NCBI GenBank assembly: GCA_030524715.1
Contig: JAUNGB010000041.1
Span: 1 to 45,775 of the forward strand
Source: Eubacteriales bacterium
Lineage (GTDB): Bacteria > Bacillota > Clostridia > Lachnospirales > Lachnospiraceae
Reading direction: 5' to 3'
Length of the DNA: 45,775 nt
Shown here: positions 973 to 19,149 of the stretch, one piece after another
Numbering within the stretch: position 1 is the stretch's first letter
How the letters are laid out: every line of letters begins with the position of its first letter
Made by a program: the position numbers and the translations under genes
Notes under the pieces: model-generated
What the model saw: the letters and a program-made list of their open reading frames with translations, nothing else
Told to the model about the DNA's origin: nothing
The model's database searches: none

Positions 973-2205
973 TTAATTTCTTCTCAGCGCTTCGATTGGG
1001 CTGAGCTTTGCGGCTTTTCTCGCAGGATAAATACCGAAGAATACTCCTACCGCACAGGAAAACAGCGTTGCTACCATAATTGTGGATATGCTGATTCCCG
1101 GCTGGATCGTCATTCCCATTCCGGAACTGATGACGGTACAGATTCCATAAGCGCCTGCAATTCCCAGAAGGATCCCGATCACGCCTCCGATGGCAGTCAA
1201 AATGGCTGCCTCCGCCAAGAACTGAAGCATGATGGATGAAGTCTTTGCCCCAAGGGACTTACGGATACCGATCTCTCTGGTACGCTCCGTTACCGATACA
1301 AGCATGATGTTCATCACGCCGATGCCGCCTACCAGAAGGGAAATTCCTGCTACAAACGAAATAAACGCCGTCACCATTCCAAGCATTTCATTCATGGTTT
1401 TCATAACATCCTGAAAGCTTTCAACCTGGTAGTAATCCTCTCCCGCGCTTTTGTGGCGTTTTTCCAGAACCCGGATGATCTCGTCCGCAACCTTCTGGGA
1501 ATCCAGACTTTTATCCGCCTGCACGGTCATGGCATAAAAATAATCCATATTTCCGGTAAAATCATCCATCGCCGTATAGGGAACGTTGACAGTTACCGGC
1601 ATTCCCTCGTAGGTATAGCTGACAAAGGTTCCGTTTTCCTTCTGAGTGGTCACTCCGCAGATACGGAAACTCTTGGTCAGATCATAGCAGGTAATGTCCA
1701 GACTCATTCCCACCACGTCATCTGTGCCGAACAGCCTCTTTGCGTCGGTGTCCGAGATCACGCAGACATTCTTGGCCTCTTCCACTTCCATTTCGCCGAA
1801 ATAGCTTCCATGCTTCATAACGGCATTATTGATCAGCCTGGCGTCCTGCCCTTCCGCCGTTACCATCAGGTCAAAATTCCCTTTCCCGGTTACGGTTTCT
1901 CCTGAATAGCTTTCTGAAATACTGACGCCTACCACGCTGTCCAGTTCCCGGACCGCTTCGATATCATCCGGAAGAATCCATTCGTCGTCCGCTTGTGCGT
2001 CGCTGCTGCAGGAAATATAAATCTGGCCGCCTCCCGCATCGTTGATCTCGCTGTTCATCTGATTCTTCGTGCCTTCGCCGATAGATACGATGGCAATGAC
2101 GGAGGCAATCCCGATAATGATACCAAGCATTGTGAGAAAAGAGCGGCCTTTATTTGCCCGTATATTCTGAATTGCCATCTTCACATATTCGTATATGCTA
2201 CTCAT
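973..2205 (-). CDS. MacB-like ABC transporter permease (FtsX/MacB_PCD fold)
   Basis: A 410-residue permease. One membrane helix sits near residues 24-45 ('SFLTMLGIIIGIASVIAIVSI'), followed by a large extracellular MacB_PCD domain (about 50-280). Three C-terminal helices include the hallmark 'GGIGVMNIMLVSVTERTREIGIRKSLGA' region, split here by its variable positions. The MacB family exports peptides, antibiotics or lipoproteins by mechanotransmission rather than passing substrate through the membrane. The start MSSIYEYVKMAIQNIRANKG was chosen because its ATG overlaps the adaptor stop by 8 bases; the longer reading adds a non-conserved 22-residue extension. Last gene of a three-gene operon. The substrate is not predictable. 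Confidence 0.93.
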   Translation of the reverse strand: MSSIYEYVKMAIQNIRANKGRSFLTMLGIIIGIASVIAIVSIGEGTKNQMNSEINDAGGGQIYISCSSDAQADDEWILPDDIEAVRELDSVVGVSISESYSGETVTGKGNFDLMVTAEGQDARLINNAVMKHGSYFGEMEVEEAKNVCVISDTDAKRLFGTDDVVGMSLDITCYDLTKSFRICGVTTQKENGTFVSYTYEGMPVTVNVPYTAMDDFTGNMDYFYAMTVQADKSLDSQKVADEIIRVLEKRHKSAGEDYYQVESFQDVMKTMNEMLGMVTAFISFVAGISLLVGGIGVMNIMLVSVTERTREIGIRKSLGAKTSSIMLQFLAEAAILTAIGGVIGILLGIAGAYGICTVISSGMGMTIQPGISISTIMVATLFSCAVGVFFGIYPARKAAKLSPIEALRRN

Positions 2206-10971: not shown

Positions 10972-11631
10972 TTATTTTCTTCTGTCAAACCGTTTGGACA
11001 GCATCATTCCGATTCCCTGTAAAATCTGTACCAGTACCACCAGGATTATGATCGTAATTACCATAATATCTGTCTGATAGCGATGATAGCCATACCGGAT
11101 TGCAATATCTCCAAGCCCTCCCCCTCCAACTGTGCCTGCCATGGCTGAATATCCCAGAATTGTTCCTACTGCAATCGTAACCCCTACCAGAAGAGAGGTC
11201 CGGGCTTCCGCAAGCAGAACCTTCCGGATAATCGTGCCGGGACCGGCTCCCATGCTGAGCGCGGCTTCGACTACGCCGGGATCTACTTCTTTAAGGGAGG
11301 ACTCCACCATCCGGGCGATAAACGGAGCCGCCGCAATCACGAGAGGGACAATTGTCGCACTGGAACCATAGCTTCTCCCTACAATCAGCCTGGTCAGCGG
11401 AATTACCAGAATCAGAAGAATAAGAAACGGAATACTTCTGAGGATATTTACAATAAAATCCAGTATTTTGTATATTAGTGCATTTGGACGGATTCCTTCT
11501 TTGTCCGTTACTGCAAGGGTAATTCCTACGGGAAGTCCCAGAACGTAACCGAACAATGTGGAAACCAGTGTCATATACAGGGTATCCACGGTTCCTTCCA
11601 GCAGCATTATGGCAATTTTGCTATCCAACAT
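10972..11631 (-). CDS. metI: Methionine ABC importer permease MetI
   Basis: A 219-residue integral membrane permease with five predicted helices and the EAA loop around 'AALSMGAGPGTIIRKVLLAEAR', which docks onto MetN. Length and sequence match MetI of the methionine uptake transporter (MUT) family; 'TVGGGGLGDIAIRYGYHRYQ' is typical. It forms the D/L-methionine channel with MetN. The start overlaps metN by 11 bases and uses the GGAGG inside the metN tail. It is the last gene of the operon that starts at the cysteine-rich leader. Confidence 0.95.
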   Translation of the reverse strand: MLDSKIAIMLLEGTVDTLYMTLVSTLFGYVLGLPVGITLAVTDKEGIRPNALIYKILDFIVNILRSIPFLILLILVIPLTRLIVGRSYGSSATIVPLVIAAAPFIARMVESSLKEVDPGVVEAALSMGAGPGTIIRKVLLAEARTSLLVGVTIAVGTILGYSAMAGTVGGGGLGDIAIRYGYHRYQTDIMVITIIILVVLVQILQGIGMMLSKRFDRRK

Positions 11632-12631
11632 AATCCTTAAGTTCCTCCACCCCTAATTTTCTGTCCCGAATATACCGGATCATTTTATCTGCGATCTCCC
11701 GGTTTTTGGGAAGCTGTAAAATCATTTCTCCGAATGCAAGTCCATTAATCGTTTTCGTGTCGGCATATAGAATATTCAAAGGCGTATTATAAGCCAACGC
11801 CAGATTTCCGATCACCGGCTCAAATGCGGAATGATTATCAAAGGTCACACGGATTACCCGTTTTCCCTCCATCTCTTTGATCTGTCGTCTGCCGCTGAAC
11901 ACCAGCCTTCTGGCTGCCTCCGTTTCCGGGGAACGGAAAAGCTCGGTCACGGTCTTGGACTCCACAAGCCTTCCCTTTTCCAAAACAGCCGCTCTGTGGC
12001 AGATTTCCTGCACCACCGCCATCTCATGGGTAATCACCACAATCGTGATGCCGTACATCCGGTTGATTTCCTTCAGCAATTCCAGAATCGCCTTGGTTGT
12101 CTGAGGATCCAGCGCGCTGGTGGCCTCGTCGCAAAGTAAAATTTCAGGATTGTTTGCCAGCACTCTGGCAATGGCAACTCTCTGTTTCTGCCCTCCGGAC
12201 AGTTGGGAAGGGTACGCCTTTGACTTATCTTCCAGACCTACCGTTTTCAGCAGCTCCAGTGCCCGCTGCTTTGCCGCCCTTCGCGAAATCCCTGCGATTT
12301 CCATTGGAAAGCAGATATTATCAATCACATTTCTCTGCATCAGAAGATTAAAATGCTGAAAGATCATTCCAATATTCTGTCTTTCCATACGCAGCTCCCG
12401 ATCGGATAATTCCATAAGGTTTCTGCCATTGATCCGAACGGTTCCTTCCGTAGGCTTTTCCAACAAATTCAGGCAGCGCACCAAGGTACTTTTTCCTGCT
12501 CCGGAAAGACCGATAATTCCAAAAATTTCTCCTTTTTGAATGGTAAAATTAATATCCTGTATGGCGTCTACACGTCCGTCCCTGATGCTGAAAGTTTTGC
12601 TTAGATGTTCTGCCTGAATAATCGGTATCAA
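11621..12631 (-). CDS. metN: Methionine ABC importer ATPase MetN with NIL domain
   Basis: A 336-residue ATPase: Walker A 'GLSGAGKST', signature 'LSGGQKQRVAIARVL', Walker B 'ILLCDEATSALDP', H-switch 'VITHEM', then a C-terminal NIL ferredoxin-like domain (about 255-336, starting 'GKRVIRVTFDNHSAFEP'). The NIL domain binds methionine and inhibits transport when the cell is replete. The start codon is TTG, with AGGAGG 9 bases upstream. It sits between the fused binding protein and metI. Confidence 0.95.
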   Translation of the reverse strand: MIPIIQAEHLSKTFSIRDGRVDAIQDINFTIQKGEIFGIIGLSGAGKSTLVRCLNLLEKPTEGTVRINGRNLMELSDRELRMERQNIGMIFQHFNLLMQRNVIDNICFPMEIAGISRRAAKQRALELLKTVGLEDKSKAYPSQLSGGQKQRVAIARVLANNPEILLCDEATSALDPQTTKAILELLKEINRMYGITIVVITHEMAVVQEICHRAAVLEKGRLVESKTVTELFRSPETEAARRLVFSGRRQIKEMEGKRVIRVTFDNHSAFEPVIGNLALAYNTPLNILYADTKTINGLAFGEMILQLPKNREIADKMIRYIRDRKLGVEELKDYVG

Positions 12632-12696: not shown

Positions 12697-14436
12697 TTAT
12701 TCTTCAAAAGGAATTACCGCACCGTCATAGGTGTCGTTGATATACTGTTTGATCTCATCGGATTTCAGTGTTTCAACCAGCGCCTGAATCCCTTCGCTGT
12801 CTTCATTTCCTTCTTCTACCGCAATGACGTTTACATAGGTCTTAGCCGCCTCAGAATCAGAGGTTTCATAAGCGATTGCGTCGGTTGCTACGGAGAAACC
12901 TGCTTCCAGAGCATAATTGCCATTTAAGACTACGAACGCTACTTCATCCTTTACACGGGAAACCTGTGCAGCCTCCAGCTCCTGAATTTCTACTCCCTTT
13001 GTGTTTTCTTCAATATCCTGTACAGTTGCTTCCAGCCCTGCTCCTTCTGCCAGCTTAATCACTCCGTTTGCCTCCAGAAGCAGAAGCGCTCTTGCTTCAT
13101 TTGTAGTATCGTTTGGTACTGCAATGACATCACCCTCTTCCAGATCTTCAAGATCTGATTTGGTTCCCGGATAGATTCCAAACGGCTCATAGTGGATGCC
13201 GCCGGCATTTACAAGATGGGTGCCCTGCTCTTTATTAAAGTTCTCAAGATATGGAATATGCTGGAAATAGTTTGCGTCAAAATCCCCGCTGTCAACAACC
13301 AGATTCGGCTGTATATAATCGTCGAAAACAGTCACTTCCAGATCCCATCCCTGAGCTTCCAGAATCGGAGCCGCTTCTTCCAGGATTTCTGCATGCGGTG
13401 TTGCGGATGCGGCTACTGTAATGGTTCCTTTTTCTTCTGCTTCCTCTGCCGGAGCTTCAGCCGTTTCTTCGCTCTCTGTCTCTTCGGCTATAGCTTCGTT
13501 CTCTGCCCCTGCCTCATCAGATGCTGCTTCCGCATCCTCAGATGCTGCTTCATCCTCCACTTCTGCCTCATCAGATGCTTCTGTGTCTACCACGCCGCCT
13601 TCTACTACCAGACTGTCGATATCTACTTCTGTGCCGTATACCGGCGCCAGAGTTGCTTCATAGTCTGCATGGAAAAATTCTTCCTCACCCAGCGCTTTTA
13701 TCTCGTCATTGAGCCAGTTTAACAGCGTCTCATTCCCCTTGGAAACCGCCGGGGCAATGGTATCGATATCCCCCAGTGATTCCATTCCTACGGTAAATCC
13801 TTCGTTTTGGATCGCCCATGCCAACACTTCCGTATTGTCCGTGGAAAATGCATCCCCGCGCCCGTCTAACAATGCGTTATAAGCTTCCGTATACTGGTCA
13901 TACTTCTGAAGCTTTACATCCGGATAATTTTCAGTGAAATAGGTTTCTGCCGTAGTGCCCTTTGCGACAATCAGTGTCTTGCCCTCCAGCTCATCAACAG
14001 AAGTAATCAACGCATCATCCGGAGATACTACGCCCAGTGCAACTTTCATGTAAGGAAGTGCGAAGTCCACAGATTCCGCTCTCTCTTCTGTTACGGTAAA
14101 GTTTGCAAGAATGATATCAACCTTACCTGTTTCCAGATATTCCACACGGCTTGCCGCTTCTGTGGATACATATTCTACTTCAACGCCCAGATCCTCTGCC
14201 AGACGCTCTGCAAAATAAACGTCATACCCCTGGTATTCACCGTTTTCATCCACATAGCCAAATGGATTTTTGTCGCTGAATACGCCAATCACGATCTTCC
14301 CGCTTTCCTTAATTTCATCCAGGGTGCGGTAGATTGCGTCGGATTCTGCCGCGCTGGTGATTACAGCGGAGCCAAATAATGTGGAAACTGCTACAGATGC
14401 GGTTAATACGCCTGCAAGAATTTTTCTTATCTTCAT
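12697..14436 (-). CDS. Two-headed substrate-binding protein: family-3 amino-acid domain fused to a MetQ/NlpA domain
   Basis: A 579-residue fusion. Residues 1-30 are a signal peptide ending 'VITSAA' without a lipobox; no Cys occurs in the protein. Residues about 35-270 are an SBP_bac_3 domain of the cystine/glutamine/histidine type ('GEYQGYDVYFAERLAEDLG', 'ILANFTVTEERAESVDFALPY'). Residues about 276-336 are an acidic Glu/Ala-rich linker. Residues about 337-579 are a MetQ/NlpA domain ('ITVAASATPHAEILE', 'DANYFQHIPYLENFN', 'GIYPGTKSDLEDLEEG'). The two domains are normally separate proteins serving different ABC families. The gene lies exactly between genes for a polar-amino-acid importer and metNI, so it probably feeds both. 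No internal start with a ribosome site was noticed at the linker. Confidence 0.9.
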   Translation of the reverse strand: MKIRKILAGVLTASVAVSTLFGSAVITSAAESDAIYRTLDEIKESGKIVIGVFSDKNPFGYVDENGEYQGYDVYFAERLAEDLGVEVEYVSTEAASRVEYLETGKVDIILANFTVTEERAESVDFALPYMKVALGVVSPDDALITSVDELEGKTLIVAKGTTAETYFTENYPDVKLQKYDQYTEAYNALLDGRGDAFSTDNTEVLAWAIQNEGFTVGMESLGDIDTIAPAVSKGNETLLNWLNDEIKALGEEEFFHADYEATLAPVYGTEVDIDSLVVEGGVVDTEASDEAEVEDEAASEDAEAASDEAGAENEAIAEETESEETAEAPAEEAEEKGTITVAASATPHAEILEEAAPILEAQGWDLEVTVFDDYIQPNLVVDSGDFDANYFQHIPYLENFNKEQGTHLVNAGGIHYEPFGIYPGTKSDLEDLEEGDVIAVPNDTTNEARALLLLEANGVIKLAEGAGLEATVQDIEENTKGVEIQELEAAQVSRVKDEVAFVVLNGNYALEAGFSVATDAIAYETSDSEAAKTYVNVIAVEEGNEDSEGIQALVETLKSDEIKQYINDTYDGAVIPFEE

Positions 14437-14476: not shown

Positions 14477-15220
14477 CTAAAACTTAAATGTATTCAAAAA
14501 CCTCTGCGCCCTCTCGGTCTTCGGCATTGTAAAGAAATTTTCCGGCGAATCCATTTCTACAATTTCACCGCCGTCCAGGAATACAATTCTGTCTGCAACT
14601 GCCCTGGCAAATTGCATTTCGTGTGTGACGATCATCATGGTAGAACCGTTTTTTGCAAGCTCCAGCATAACATCCAGAACCTCACGGACCATTTCCGGAT
14701 CCAGAGCCGCTGTCACTTCGTCAAAAAGCATGATCTCCGGTTTCATAATCAAAGCCCTGACGATCGCTGCCCTCTGCTTCTGTCCGCCGGACAACTGTCT
14801 CGGATAAGCATCCTTTCTGTCAAAAAGCCCTACCCGCTCCAGCATCTGGCCGGCTTCCTTTTCCGCTTCTTTCCGGTCCCTTTTCTGAACCTTTAAGGGA
14901 CCCAGCAGAATATTATCCATTACTGTCATATGGGGAAACAAATCATAGCTCTGAAAAACCATCCCGATTTTCTGACGTACCTCTGTCCATCTGGTTTTTC
15001 CTCCGGTGATAACCTGGCCATCCAATAAGATTTCCCCGGACTGGATCGACTCCAGTCCGTTAAGACATCGGAGAAAGGTGCTTTTTCCGCACCCGGAAGG
15101 GCCGATGATCACGACCACCTCTCCTTTATGGACATCCAGGGAAACATCCTTCAGAACCGGTCCATTGCCGTAATCCTTTCGGAGATGACGAATCTCCAGG
15201 AGTTTTTCTGTCTTTTCCAC
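14477..15220 (-). CDS. Polar amino acid (cystine/glutamine-type) ABC importer ATPase
   Basis: A 247-residue GlnQ/TcyN-type ATPase: Walker A 'GPSGCGKST', Q-loop 'MVFQSYDLFPHMTVMDN', signature 'LSGGQKQRAAIVRAL', Walker B 'IMLFDEVTAALDPEMV' and H-switch 'IVTHEM'. 'FDEVTSALDPE' type wording marks the polar amino acid family (PAAT). It follows the second permease by 14 bases and precedes the fused binding protein by 40. Substrate is inferred to be cystine or another sulfur amino acid from the leader peptide and metNI. Confidence 0.93.
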   Translation of the reverse strand: MEKTEKLLEIRHLRKDYGNGPVLKDVSLDVHKGEVVVIIGPSGCGKSTFLRCLNGLESIQSGEILLDGQVITGGKTRWTEVRQKIGMVFQSYDLFPHMTVMDNILLGPLKVQKRDRKEAEKEAGQMLERVGLFDRKDAYPRQLSGGQKQRAAIVRALIMKPEIMLFDEVTAALDPEMVREVLDVMLELAKNGSTMMIVTHEMQFARAVADRIVFLDGGEIVEMDSPENFFTMPKTERAQRFLNTFKF

Positions 15221-15234
15221 TTTCCATTAACCTC

Positions 15235-15912
15235 TCAATTCTTCCATCTTTTTTCCAGTGCCTTTGCCGCCATGGAAATGGGCCAGCACACCAGAAAATA
15301 TAAGAAAAAAATGGTTACATAAATCCAGAGTGCAGCCGTAGGCGCCGTATAACGGTTTGCCTCTATGATCTGCTGCGCAATTTTCATCACTTCCACAACA
15401 CCGATCAGAACGATCAGGGATGTGGTCTTTATCATTCTTGTGGTCAGGTTGATTGCAAGGGGAATCAGCCTGCGAAGTGTCTGCGGTATGATGATATACC
15501 GGTATATCTGTATTTTTTCCAGCCCAATCGCCTCTCCGCTCTCATACTGGTGTCTGGGAATCGAGATCAATGCGCCTCTTACCAGATCTCCCATTTCCGC
15601 CGTTCCCCATAATGTAAAAACAATCACTGAGGAAACCTCTCCGGAAAGATTGATGCCGAATGCCTTTGTCAATCCGAAATAAACCAGAAACAAAAGCACA
15701 AGCTGAGGCATTATCCGGACAAATTCCAGATAAAGCCTGGTGAGAAATCTTGCCGCCGGATTTTTCCAGACCATGACCATTCCCAGTAAGATGCCGAAGG
15801 CTATGGACAGTAAGATCGATATGAGGGAAATTCTCACTGTAATCCATAAGCCGCCCAGAAGTCTTACAAAATTGCTGCCCATAAACAGGACTCTAATTCC
15901 CAAATCCTGCAT
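15235..15912 (-). CDS. Polar amino acid ABC importer permease (second)
   Basis: A 225-residue HisM/GlnP-type permease with about five helices and the EAA-like loop 'SGEAIGLEKIQIYRYIIIPQTLRRLIP'-type region (broken by variable positions). Other marks are 'MVWKNPAARFLTRLYLEFVR' and 'MIKTTSLIVLIGVVEVM', typical of family-3 importers. The start MQDLGIRVLFMG has GGAGG 7 bases upstream and overlaps the first permease. The two permeases probably form a heterodimer over the ATPase encoded next. Confidence 0.92.
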   Translation of the reverse strand: MQDLGIRVLFMGSNFVRLLGGLWITVRISLISILLSIAFGILLGMVMVWKNPAARFLTRLYLEFVRIMPQLVLLFLVYFGLTKAFGINLSGEVSSVIVFTLWGTAEMGDLVRGALISIPRHQYESGEAIGLEKIQIYRYIIIPQTLRRLIPLAINLTTRMIKTTSLIVLIGVVEVMKIAQQIIEANRYTAPTAALWIYVTIFFLYFLVCWPISMAAKALEKRWKN

Positions 15913-16552
15913 ATCTAAGCCTCCTTTCCAGCCATGAAGCAAATATGGAGATCGGAAGAAGCAGGATCAGATATGCAATCACAAGCATCAGAAGCGCTTC
16001 ATCTGTTTTATAATACAGACCGATCAGATCCTTTGCCACATACATCAGATCCGCCAGAGCAACTGCGCTGAACATGGACGTCTCCTTAATCAGAAAGATC
16101 ACGTTTGCACAAAGCGCCGGAACAGAAATGGATAATGCCTGCGGATAAATGACGTACCTCATTACCTGTATACGGCTTAGTCCAATACTGAGTGCAGACT
16201 CCATCTGGATTTTTTCTACTGCTTCCAGTCCGCTTCGAAACGCCTCTGTCATATAGCTGCCGCCCAGAAAACTAAGACCGATAATGGCGCATGCTTCAGA
16301 GCTTAATACCACTCCGATTTTCGGAAACCCGAAATAAAGAAGGTATAACTGTACCAGCAGCGGCGTGTTTCTTGAAAGCTCTATATAAACACTCACAATC
16401 TGCTTCAAAACAGGAATTCTGTAGTATTCTGCCAGTGAACCAAATATTCCTATGAAAAAGGAAATCAGTATCCCTATACTCCCGATCTTTATCGTAAGTC
16501 CGGCGGCCTCCACATACATGGGAGCAAATTCTGCAATAAAACGCGTATCCAT
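15893..16552 (-). CDS. Polar amino acid ABC importer permease (first)
   Basis: A 219-residue permease of the same HisM/GlnP family. It has 'YIELSRNTPLLVQLYLLYFG' (the conserved RNTPLLVQ motif) and 'ESALSIGLSRIQVMRYVIYP' (EAA loop). The start MDTRFIAEFAPMYVEAAG is preceded by AAAGGAGCAGCTTT, and this start follows the attenuator terminator by about 20 bases. It is the first structural gene of the operon, so its expression depends directly on readthrough of that terminator. Confidence 0.92.
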   Translation of the reverse strand: MDTRFIAEFAPMYVEAAGLTIKIGSIGILISFFIGIFGSLAEYYRIPVLKQIVSVYIELSRNTPLLVQLYLLYFGFPKIGVVLSSEACAIIGLSFLGGSYMTEAFRSGLEAVEKIQMESALSIGLSRIQVMRYVIYPQALSISVPALCANVIFLIKETSMFSAVALADLMYVAKDLIGLYYKTDEALLMLVIAYLILLLPISIFASWLERRLRYAGFGN

Positions 16553-16571: not shown

Positions 16572-16601
16572 AAAAAAAACAGGAAGCCTCTCACTTCCTG
16601 T
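16572..16601 (-). terminator. Attenuator terminator between leader peptide and transporter operon
   Basis: On the minus strand ACAGGAAG (16594-16601), loop TGAGAGG and CTTCCTGT (16579-16586) form a perfect 8-bp stem, followed by eight T. It lies between the leader stop and the first permease. Its 3' arm (GCTTCCTGTT) recurs exactly inside the leader at 16691-16700, so the 5' arm can pair alternatively there. Confidence 0.85.
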
Positions 16602-16642
16602 AAATACAAATCTTATTTGTCTGATTGAACAGTTCTCAGAGA

Positions 16643-16810
16643 TCAGGACAAATATACGGACGACAGCAATAATACCCGCTGTCTCCTTTCAACAGGAAGC
16701 ATTCGATCCAAAACAGCGCAGCAACACATGGACATGCCGCAACAGCACATCTCTTTCTGACTATGATTCATACAACAACTCATGCTATACTCTGCGAATC
16801 CTGATTTCAT
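16643..16810 (-). CDS. Cysteine- and methionine-rich leader peptide (putative attenuator uORF)
   Basis: A 55-codon frame from ATG 16810 with an excellent ribosome site (AAAGGAG, 8 bases before ATG), just downstream of a consensus promoter. It encodes Cys at positions 12-13, 22-24 and 29-31, and Met at 1, 10, 14, 21, 26, 28 and 37. It has no export signal or known domain. After the last Cys run, codons 38-40 (CTTCCTGTT) can pair with the 5' arm of the terminator at 16572-16601. CGCTGT just after Cys31 can pair with ACAGCG at codons 43-45, a possible competing hairpin. This is the architecture of a trp-type ribosome-stalling attenuator that reads cysteine (perhaps also methionine) supply. A longer upstream start adds 14 residues but lacks a ribosome site. 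Confidence 0.75.
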   Translation of the reverse strand: MKSGFAEYSMSCCMNHSQKEMCCCGMSMCCCAVLDRMLPVERRQRVLLLSSVYLS

Positions 16811-16896
16811 AACCCATTCTCCTTTTCCTGAAAATTCTGCCGTCTTATACATTAACTAAGAACGAAGGTAATTTCCTTCATATTTTCTTATATAGT

Positions 16897-16911
16897 CTAT
16901 CGGCTTAGTAG
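16897..16911. promoter_or_regulatory. Dyad at the transcription start, candidate repressor operator
   Basis: The minus strand reads CTACTAAGCCGATAG, with CTA/TAG ends and purine-pyrimidine symmetry inside, beginning three bases after the -10 box. Its position suits a repressor. An Rrf2-type sulfur regulator such as CymR would be a natural candidate, but this is only inferred from context. Confidence 0.35.
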
Positions 16912-16913
16912 GT

Positions 16914-16942
16914 ATATTAGCACCCAGGCTTCTATTTGTCAA
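16914..16942 (-). promoter_or_regulatory. Consensus sigma-A promoter of the sulfur amino acid import operon
   Basis: On the minus strand TTGACA (16937-16942), exactly 17 bases, then TAATAT (16914-16919). The transcript would start near 16907, about 95 bases before the leader peptide. Confidence 0.85.
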
Positions 16943-17011: not shown

Positions 17012-17060
17012 AAAAGTGCAAAAAGCCGCATATCCCTTGCAGCTTTTTGCACTTTTTTAT
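17012..17060 (-). terminator. Strong bidirectional terminator after the GH120 gene
   Basis: AAAAGTGCAAAAAGC (17012-17026) and its exact complement (17042-17056) form a 15-bp stem with T runs on both sides. It separates the xylosidase gene from the sulfur operon promoter. Confidence 0.9.
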
Positions 17061-17121: not shown

Positions 17122-19149
17122 TTATTCTTCAATCCTGCAGGCGGAAAACAGATTTTTCTGCGCGGATTCTCTGCTCTCAAAAGGCCCCGCCAGAGGATTG
17201 ATTCCTCTGTGTTCTCCATTATAATCGCAGTCAAAGAAAATCGGGGTTCCGTCTGGATTTTCAAATTTTTGCTCCGGCTCGAAGGCTTCTCCCAGAATCT
17301 CGGTGGAGATAAACGGTGTTGCAAACTCCGGCATAAAATCATAAAGATTGGTTTCCAGCAGGATCCTGCCATCCTCTTCCTTCAGCTTCCAGGAAACCGG
17401 ATGCTCTGTATCAAGCTTATAGTTTTCTTCCGTATCACAGGGCTGCGCGCCATTAAAATAAACATTTCCTCCCGTATAAACCGGCATATGGTCATAGTAA
17501 AAATCTTTATGTCCGTGATCCACGATCGACCGGGCTGTAAACTGCGCACGGTAGGCTGCCTCTGTAGGATAGCCGTCATAGGGCTTTGTTCCGCAGACAA
17601 AAGTAAACTGTTTCTCCATATCTTCCTTCTGCGTATATGCAAGCAGATCTTCCCTGACAGGCTGCTGAACAAAAATGTTATTATAAAAACGGGCGTCTCC
17701 GTGGAGAATCGTCATAAATCCCGCAACCTCTGTCCTGTGGGGCACATGATACGGCGTATAGCGGTTGGAAGGAAGATGTTCCGCGCCGTTATCCGTTCCA
17801 TCTCCTACCCAGGTAAAGGAACCTGCAATGAGATTATGTACAAATGCAATTCCCTGGGTGCTGACGCGGCAGGCACAGTTAGACAGCAGCAGGTTATTGT
17901 CTATCAGTGTCGGGCCATGAGATACTTCAATAAAGATATCCTCTGCCAGAGACAGGGAATTTGTAATTCTGGTTCCTTTGGGCGGAACATTATCATGGAA
18001 CAGATTCTGCGTCACACGGGTTCCCTGCGCCTGCCAGTCAAGCCAAAGTCCCCTGGTACAGTGGTGGATATGGTTTCTTCTGTATATTACATCGATAGCG
18101 GCGTGCATCTTGATGCCGCCGATCTCAGCCCCCGCCAGATCCTGCTTATTATTAATGTGATGAATATGGTTATCCTCAATAACAGAGAATACGCCTCCCA
18201 GATGTCCTACGATACCAGTCTGGCCGCAGTCATGGATATTGCAGCGCCGTACAATATGATGACCGATATTTTCTTTTGTCCAGCCTTCAAGCTGTGCCTG
18301 GCAAATGGCGTCTCTCTCTGTCTGCGTCCCGTCTTTATAGTATTTTGTCGTCCATTTATTTTCATTATTCGGCTGAAGATATTTGCCAAGAGAAATACCG
18401 GAGCATCTGGAATCTGAAATTTCACAGTCCTCGATCACCCAGCCTCTGGACCAGTGAGGGCCCACCATACCTTCCTGATAAGCAGTAGGCGGAGCCCACT
18501 GGGTTGCAGCCTGTTTTACCACAAATCCGGAAAGAGTAATGTAATTAACTCCTGTTTTGTCAGGATAAAAGCAGTTTCTGCGCACATTGATCTCCACCAG
18601 TTCCTTTGTGGGGTCTGCTCCCTGAAAATTCGCATAAATGACTGTTTCGTTTCCATCCTGTTCCGTATACCAGGTATATACGGTACCTTCCGGATCCCAG
18701 GATGAATTATCTGTCTCCGGATCTAATACCTTCTTTAACTCTGTCGCTTCATACATGGCCTTTCCATTCAGATAGACCTCGCCGGTATGTACCGGTTTAA
18801 TCGTCTCGTCATACCAGTCGCCCTTTACCAGGACAGTATAGGGGTTATACGTACCGAAAATTCCGTTGGGAATCCTTGCCTTCCAGACATTACCCTGGTA
18901 TTTTTCCCAGTTCTTTACTTCCTCCGCACCTGTGATCACGGCTTTCCCCATAACCTCGGAACGATATACAACAGGGGCGTCCTTTGTCCCTGCATTTATG
19001 GGATTTACATATTCACGGTATATTCCCGGCGCTACAATTACTTCATCCCCTGCCGCCGCGATTTTGGCTGCCTGTGTGATCGTCTGAAAAGGTTTTTCTT
19101 TAGAGCCGTCGCCATTTCTTGCGGCTTTTGCTGAAACATAATATTTCAT
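17122..19149 (-). CDS. GH120 family beta-xylosidase (right-handed beta-helix)
   Basis: A 675-residue intracellular enzyme that removes xylose from the non-reducing end of xylo-oligosaccharides. The N-terminus ('MKYYVSAKAARNGDGSKEKP') is a DUF1565-like beta-helix cap. The match to the GH120 enzyme of Thermoanaerobacterium is clear from memory in 'IYANFQGADPTKELVEINVR', 'AATQWAPPTAYQEGMVGPHW' and 'LGGVFSVIEDNHIHHI'. 'GLWLDWQAQGTRV' holds the presumed nucleophile Asp and 'DIFIEVSHGP' the acid/base Glu. No signal peptide. The ribosome site is GGAGGAGACACACAA before ATG. Divergent from an AraC regulator, which probably controls it in response to xylose or xylobiose. Confidence 0.9.
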   Translation of the reverse strand: MKYYVSAKAARNGDGSKEKPFQTITQAAKIAAAGDEVIVAPGIYREYVNPINAGTKDAPVVYRSEVMGKAVITGAEEVKNWEKYQGNVWKARIPNGIFGTYNPYTVLVKGDWYDETIKPVHTGEVYLNGKAMYEATELKKVLDPETDNSSWDPEGTVYTWYTEQDGNETVIYANFQGADPTKELVEINVRRNCFYPDKTGVNYITLSGFVVKQAATQWAPPTAYQEGMVGPHWSRGWVIEDCEISDSRCSGISLGKYLQPNNENKWTTKYYKDGTQTERDAICQAQLEGWTKENIGHHIVRRCNIHDCGQTGIVGHLGGVFSVIEDNHIHHINNKQDLAGAEIGGIKMHAAIDVIYRRNHIHHCTRGLWLDWQAQGTRVTQNLFHDNVPPKGTRITNSLSLAEDIFIEVSHGPTLIDNNLLLSNCACRVSTQGIAFVHNLIAGSFTWVGDGTDNGAEHLPSNRYTPYHVPHRTEVAGFMTILHGDARFYNNIFVQQPVREDLLAYTQKEDMEKQFTFVCGTKPYDGYPTEAAYRAQFTARSIVDHGHKDFYYDHMPVYTGGNVYFNGAQPCDTEENYKLDTEHPVSWKLKEEDGRILLETNLYDFMPEFATPFISTEILGEAFEPEQKFENPDGTPIFFDCDYNGEHRGINPLAGPFESRESAQKNLFSACRIEE

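Follow-up and report, generated by a model that had tools for sequence, protein, structure and literature searches.

The window, the whole 45,775-nucleotide stretch of DNA that was analysed, carries on its minus strand a putative cystine and methionine import operon, the cargo being judged from protein families. Its first gene encodes a BPD_transp_1 permease of a polar or sulfur amino-acid ABC importer (15893..16552, ATG at 16552), and ectoine, cystine, and other permease models match it below cut-off. A second BPD_transp_1 permease (15235..15942) and an ATPase (14477..15220) follow, the latter best matching the GlnQ, EhuA, and TcyN models, all below cut-off. The next gene encodes a fused binding protein (12697..14436) that joins, by domain match, a family-3 solute-binding domain to an NlpA/MetQ domain; the same fusion lies behind L081, one of the related leaders described below. 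A MetN-like ATPase with a NIL domain (11621..12631, by model match) and a MetI permease (10972..11631; 221.2 bits against a cut-off of 212) complete the operon.

Ahead of the first permease, positions 16942-16572 of the minus strand hold, in order, a promoter, a ribosome site, a cysteine-rich reading frame, and an intrinsic terminator. The promoter, TTGACA-17-TAATAT (16914..16942), agrees with the consensus at 10 of 12 positions and has a TG ahead of the -10 box. The ribosome-binding site AAAAGGAG (16819..16826) lies 8 nt ahead of the ATG at 16810, which opens a 55-codon frame, MKSGFAEYSMSCCMNHSQKEMCCCGMSMCCCAVLDRMLPVERRQRVLLLSSVYLS (16643..16810), closed by TGA at 16645-16643; a start at the in-frame ATG 16852 would lengthen it to 69 codons, from a ribosome site that looks weaker by eye. 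The sequence of this frame has eight Cys codons, four TGT and four TGC, in three runs: codons 12 and 13 (16772..16777), codons 22, 23, and 24 (16739..16747), and codons 29, 30, and 31 (16718..16726), the last being the final run ahead of the pairing arm. The probability of at least eight Cys in 55 codons is ~2e-6 to 1e-5 if a Cys frequency of 1.5-2% is assumed. Seven further codons encode Met (1, 10, 14, 21, 26, 28, and 37). The promoter, the strong ribosome site, the frame, its Cys runs, and its many Met codons all sit where a first-pass annotation had placed them. A glycoside-hydrolase-120-like gene (17122-19149) is followed, still upstream of the leader promoter, by a terminator-like hairpin of 19 pairs and its T run (17012-17056, minus strand).

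Three segments of the leader are predicted to pair in alternative ways. Region 1, the putative antiterminator 5' arm GCTTCCTGTT (16691..16700), lies within the leader frame, starting at the last base of codon 37 and running through codon 40, directly after CGAAT. Region 2 is the shared arm ACAGGAAG (16594..16601), whose partner is either region 1 or region 3, the terminator 3' arm CTTCCTGT with its T run (16572..16586, from a terminator scan). In the predicted antiterminator, the leader arm GCTTCCTGT pairs with region 2; the terminator spans 16601-16579, with T continuing to 16572 (eight T in all), and has 9 pairs by scan and 8 Watson-Crick pairs by eye. The annotated terminator with its eight T lies at 16601-16572, ahead of the permease ATG at 16552, and the annotated 10-base copy of its 3' arm is likewise found in the leader (16700-16691), a copy as long occurring in only 5/3000 dinucleotide shuffles of the 209-nt window leader. 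CGCTGT and ACAGCG, for which a competing hairpin had been proposed, can also both be read in the sequence; a counterpart of that hairpin was not seen in the consensus of the Clostridial leader family described below.

Attenuators of the trp, his, and ilv type in Proteobacteria combine a leader peptide, alternative hairpins, and an intrinsic terminator. The window follows this plan: its leader frame has a ribosome site, its regulatory codons come in clusters, and an intrinsic terminator separates the leader from the operon. It is likely that 16942-16572 is a ribosome-mediated attenuator that reads charged tRNA-Cys, possibly with Met as well, and controls the cystine/methionine import operon. 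When cysteine is short, a ribosome would wait at Cys codons 12-13, 22-24, or 29-31, with a footprint that stops ahead of GCTTCCTGTT and leaves the arm free. The free arm would pair with ACAGGAAG once the latter is transcribed, no terminator would form, and the importer would be made. When cysteine is ample, a ribosome on codons 34-46 would mask the arm during synthesis of region 2, and ACAGGAAG would pair with the terminator 3' arm, ending transcription before the first permease.

Folding with a ribosome in place matches this logic in the early state, before the terminator 3' arm exists. Regions 1 and 2 then pair with a probability of 0.89-0.97 when the ribosome is at Cys codons 12-31 and of <=0.02 when it is at codons 34-45, so that the arm is free at the regulatory codons and masked further on, as the first-pass annotation had anticipated. 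The masking is transient, however, as the antiterminator forms with P 0.96 when the ribosome is at the stop codon and with P 0.95 without a ribosome, the outcome being mixed at codons 47-55. Since the arm is freed again once the ribosome has passed it, the 'off' state of the window leader would depend on well-timed occupancy of codons 34-46 by a ribosome. At equilibrium, the full window transcript folds into the terminator at every ribosome position (P 0.94-0.98 for ribosomes placed on Cys codons), and no stalled state favouring readthrough was found for the full leader. The leader would therefore need co-transcriptional (kinetic) control. The idea that Cys-placed stalling frees the arm thus draws its support from the early state and from related leaders with Cys codons, sulfur genes, and a covarying antiterminator, but not from the equilibrium fold of the window. 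For the related family, a mutually exclusive antiterminator of this kind is predicted when 113 leaders are folded with the whole transcript.

These relatives were reached through the permease. A peptide search with the window leader gave no convincing relative in the 63 other genomes of the genus (best other E 0.0128), and a narrow pattern, NHSQ then MCC, matched only the window and one out-of-frame chance stretch in 299 family genomes. Reading upstream of permease homologues revealed a short frame, NHSQNSAMCCRMLYSRAYRMAG, in G057 (L041) ahead of the same permease as in the window. Used as a query, NHSQNSAMCCRMLYSRAYRMAG led to further frames with MCCRMLxSRxYxMAG before O-acetylhomoserine sulfhydrylase in the same genus. 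The DNA common to these leaders is TGTCGAATGCT-NNN-CTCCCGGGCA, with TGCCCGGGAGC downstream and then the terminator arm; by sequence comparison, the window has the 10 bases TCGAATGCTT (16697..16706) in common with their core (TGTCGAATGCTT...). The family plan consists of Cys (and Met) codons, CGAATG, and an arm, commonly CTCCCGGGCA, able to pair with the 5' half of the terminator.

An exact pattern scan of genome contigs from 84,980 species gave at least 119 stretches. Among the 80 loci listed, one is labelled Eggerthellaceae, and the rest bear names of Clostridia-type taxa, among them Lachnospiraceae, Ruminococcaceae, Saccharofermentans, Christensenella, and Blautia, or are labelled only Bacillota/Firmicutes. 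The other 39 loci entered only the gene and neighbouring-codon counts, and of the pattern loci only the 80 entered folding and covariation. A covariance model, R1, was built from 65 leaders, mostly picked by a pattern in which TGTCGAATGCT and CTCCCGG were fixed; the conservation of these bases is therefore a selection effect, as is part of the adjacent Cys enrichment. R1 finds the leader at 10 places in 9/64 genomes of the genus (E<1e-10), in 38/250 genomes of the family sampled at one per genus (E<=0.01), in 12/391 genomes of the class (E<=1e-6), eleven of them from four other families, and in 1/299 genomes of the phylum (E<=1e-6). Weak matches are lost in the large searches, whose filters were stricter. 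At one locus, L088, the leader core occurs twice (1049-1069 and 1176-1196, minus strand), 127 bases apart with an N run in between.

In these related Clostridial leaders, a ribosome waiting for cysteine probably keeps the downstream genes on, as comparative and folding evidence indicates. Unguided RNAalifold places a 10-pair helix between the leader arm and region 2. Across 51 model hits (alignment A4, 51 rows, fitted to the first helix and with L255 and L256 left out), 10 of 15 pairs vary on both sides, comprising 5/10 in the antiterminator helix and 5/5 in a second helix, ATGGC:GCCAT. None of 500 shuffles reaches any of the five covariation measures, and pairing cells make up 94.7% in the model hits versus 20-47% in slid controls. 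Compensating arms include CTCCCAGGCA with TGCCTGGGAG, GCACCGG with CCGGGTGC, and CTCTCGAGCAT with ATGCTCGGGAG. The pairing of each arm with its own region 2 beats permuted pairing both for 41 leaders (0/5000) and for 19 variants alone (0/5000), the window being included in each set; pairing is poor in a few leaders, with mismatches for example in L198 and L210.

Cysteine codons are concentrated beside the core. In the set used for codon counts and arm permutation (40/46 leaders with CGAATG near the hit start, 6 dropped), Cys occupies 96/240 codons directly ahead of the core versus 0/160 at codons -7 to -10. In each of the 40 leaders with exact CGAATG, a Cys lies within three codons of it (one codon away in 31, two in 6, and three in 3); a Cys immediately before the core was set by the scan pattern and is partly built in, while codons -2 and beyond were free.

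Predicted folds of the family leaders respond to ribosome position. Folding covered 113 of 127 leaders, with region 2 picked as the best complement to the leader arm; the remainder had a short flank (5), were duplicates or contained N (3), or lacked a T run (5) or an arm match (1). When the ribosome sits on the codon preceding CGA, the antiterminator is predicted to exceed the terminator in 99/113 leaders (mean P 0.83). Six codons further, with the ribosome on the arm, it is ahead in 0/113, and the terminator has a mean P of 0.78. The antiterminator is ahead in 54/113 with the ribosome at the stop codon and in 84/113 without a ribosome.

Genes downstream of family leaders belong mostly to sulfur amino-acid metabolism and uptake. 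The first downstream gene was readable at 124 loci, drawn without de-replication from the 80 listed pattern loci, 7 genus loci, and 46 model hits, with 9 geneless: 69 are O-acetylhomoserine sulfhydrylase-like, 35 encode MetQ or fused binding proteins, and 5 encode permeases. The gene at L056 encodes a permease. Family names were tested on single representatives, with the remaining members assigned by blastp. The other 39 pattern loci comprise 14 O-acetylhomoserine sulfhydrylase-like genes, 14 MetQ or fused binding proteins, 3 permeases, 4 other genes, and 4 geneless loci. Rarer sulfur-type first genes are two MetN-like-looking ABC ATPases and a cysK fragment, recognised by eye, that also matches glutamate-cysteine ligase. 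At L232, the leader precedes a (2S)-3-sulfopropanediol dehydratase-like frame (774 bits over 468 residues, against a full-length cut-off of 1000), a gene of the sulfonate-degrading type. Counter to a purely sulfur-related set are M20 peptidases (L092, L255), a cyclase (L245), a GDSL lipase (L210), a short-chain dehydrogenase (L254), two first genes without a Pfam match (L241, L115), and, among the other 39 loci, a gene start that by eye resembles alcohol dehydrogenase, present twice, and one further frame.

The window leader shows the family traits of Cys codons, a CGAATG core, an arm that pairs with the terminator 5' half, and sulfur-type genes downstream, yet its R1 score is 5.5 bits (E 0.93). 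At this score, it is not filed as a canonical member, and its own genome has no canonical copy at the R1 thresholds used. The conservation that the first-pass annotation asked about extends to the plan of Cys codons, arm, and terminator in related leaders, while the window itself is divergent and its arms differ from the family arms. L252 is intermediate: its Cys is followed by Met-Asp and the core, a spacing of two codons against four (A-V-L-D) in the window, and GATCGAATGCT is common to both.

Such divergence is compatible with a decayed or neutral remnant of the attenuator family, in which the terminator just lowers expression and a regulator bound at the promoter does the sensing. The low model score fits decay, as does a terminator favoured at equilibrium for all ribosome positions. 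The second helix, ATGGC:GCCAT, was not seen in the window leader by eye, and no such leader precedes the closest permease homologue (G039, 83% identical) within the 466 bases that could be read ahead of it. Decay should not, however, preserve a 10-base arm copy that is unlike the family arms and so rare in shuffles, and the 55-codon Cys-rich frame is still open behind a good ribosome site, which makes a remnant unlikely. The window leader is probably a working, divergent relative of the family, judging from sequence comparison and predicted folds; we infer for it kinship with the family, translation, Cys-dependent stalling, and a co-transcriptional antiterminator.

A parallel case occurs in G054 (L272), where a Met/Cys-rich, window-like leader, MLYGRNTDTNKMMCGTMDGMCMAPCFCMPNKRGFSVIRHHLDMRMCM, and a strong terminator precede O-acetylhomoserine sulfhydrylase. 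This leader has its own arms, differing from those of the window, with a duplex of -13.9 kcal/mol versus -13.7 in the window. About six codons separate the last Cys ahead of the arm from the arm, and one extra Cys codon lies beyond it. The end of the G054 leader also bears CGAATGTG.

Leaders seem to come and go quickly within the genus, to judge from the regions upstream of O-acetylhomoserine sulfhydrylase. This enzyme has 53 matches in 49/64 genomes, and 48 upstream regions were examined, some ending at contig ends. A canonical leader is present in 5, a second kind of short frame in 14, and the G054 type in 1; in the remaining regions, neither kind of leader was seen, and several, including that of the window's own genome, have cysK ahead. 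The second kind (L261, L268, L274, L276, L279-L282, L284, L285, L293, and L303-L305) has CGAATG immediately followed by Cys codons (RMC, RMCCCR), often close to the stop, and mostly shows no terminator evident by eye. The hexamer CGAATG thus recurs in canonical leaders and in this second kind of frame.

The peptide itself might also act as the sensor, with a ligand such as a metal, and not a shortage of tRNA-Cys, stalling the ribosome on a Cys/Met/His-rich chain. The Bordetella CruR leader is a precedent for stalling by the peptide itself, MNHSQKEMCCCGMSMCCC is rich in potential metal-binding residues, and Met is common before the family core (26/40 leaders at codon -4). Such a sensor is hard to reconcile with downstream genes that serve mostly sulfur uptake and sulfur amino-acid synthesis, or with Cys and Met residues that vary in number and order across the family yet stay beside the arm. 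We regard this explanation as very doubtful for the window, and prefer stalling for want of charged tRNA-Cys.

A slighter chance still attaches to a ligand- or tRNA-binding leader, a riboswitch or T-box, in which the open frame is incidental. CGAATG and the helix sequences are strongly conserved at the nucleotide level, partly by selection, which speaks for such an RNA. Against it, no Rfam family, T-boxes included, reaches the gathering score in the window, and eight loci (the window's included) searched at E 1 return only GA-cis in L057, outside the leader core. Moreover, family Cys residues are preserved with both TGT and TGC in use. Chance alone, with both the Cys-rich frame and the copied terminator arm being accidents, has a foothold in the divergence of the window from the family and the absence of the leader from the nearest homologue, but is hardly credible given the probability estimates for both elements (5/3000 shuffles; Cys P ~2e-6 to 1e-5), the operon type and genus shared with family members, and the parallel in G054.

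In Firmicutes, T-boxes and S-boxes need no translation and sense tRNA or SAM directly. The leaders described here resemble them in the probable antitermination of the same kinds of sulfur genes, would differ in depending on translation, and have no Rfam match here. With trp/his/ilv-type attenuators they share runs of the regulated amino acid, alternative hairpins, and an intrinsic terminator before the operon; they differ in a presumed response to cysteine (perhaps methionine), in occurring in Clostridia, in carrying the family arm inside the frame, ~14 nt past the codon before CGA, and in a ribosome-free family fold that favours antitermination (84/113). The Listeria ilv operon reportedly has a ribosome-mediated Ile attenuator, which is likewise a Firmicute leader-peptide control of an amino-acid operon, although for another amino acid and in another bacterial class. 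Polycysteine short ORFs of mycobacteria are said to have been described by Canestrari in 2020.

Reports or predictions of Cys-codon attenuation exist for mycobacteria, for other Actinobacteria, and for Rhodobacterales (PMC1262725, PMC8632094, PMC13236596). In Rhodobacterales, uORFC-8-2 lies before cysS and has two tandem Cys codons followed by a U run taken as an intrinsic terminator; Cys attenuation was proposed for it (PMC8632094). It is set apart from the present leaders in that it concerns Alphaproteobacteria and cysteinyl-tRNA synthetase only. Cys-rich leader peptides also precede cysteine genes in Mycobacterium, Propionibacterium, and Bifidobacterium, with no conserved terminators found (PMC1262725), and the mycobacterial Cys-responsive case is described as translation attenuation (PMC13236596). 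Unlike these actinobacterial leaders, the Clostridial ones have an intrinsic terminator and a covarying antiterminator. The first-pass annotation knew of no Cys attenuator described for Clostridia, and a terminator-based, covarying family of this kind was indeed not found in Rfam 15 or in the literature searched, in which few subscription journals were covered.

Control of sulfur genes in Firmicutes is usually attributed to T-boxes, S-boxes, and CymR. The chances appear about even that Clostridia run a large unrecognised sulfur regulon built on one Cys/Met-sensing leader plan, a CCTATTGACATAGTAGG repressor repeat, and re-invented arms, including those of the window. This regulon would comprise CGAATG, the two-helix antiterminator, and the terminator, ahead of O-acetylhomoserine sulfhydrylase, fused cystine/Met importers, and occasional other sulfur genes. 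A family of Cys-codon attenuators that spans Lachnospiraceae and no fewer than four further families of the class would add a translation-based layer over the uptake of cystine and methionine and over homocysteine synthesis in bacteria of the gut and rumen. Short terminated RNAs would be expected to yield to readthrough when cysteine is limiting, and the leaders whose arms are matched differently offer a natural set of compensatory changes.

The inverted repeat CCTATTGACATAGTAGG overlaps the -35 box upstream of related leaders, for example at L197, L215, and L219. Its half-site is present in 32/40 upstream stretches versus 6/40 in one shuffle each, which suggests a repressor, perhaps of the Rrf2/CymR kind. 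Around the window promoter, ACTATTGACAAATAG and ATACCTACTAAG resemble, by eye, a frayed version of this repeat. In G022, a GA-cis RNA (RF02987, 57.6 bits; L057:1605-1687, minus strand) lies upstream of the Cys leader core, placing two cis elements in tandem before O-acetylhomoserine sulfhydrylase.
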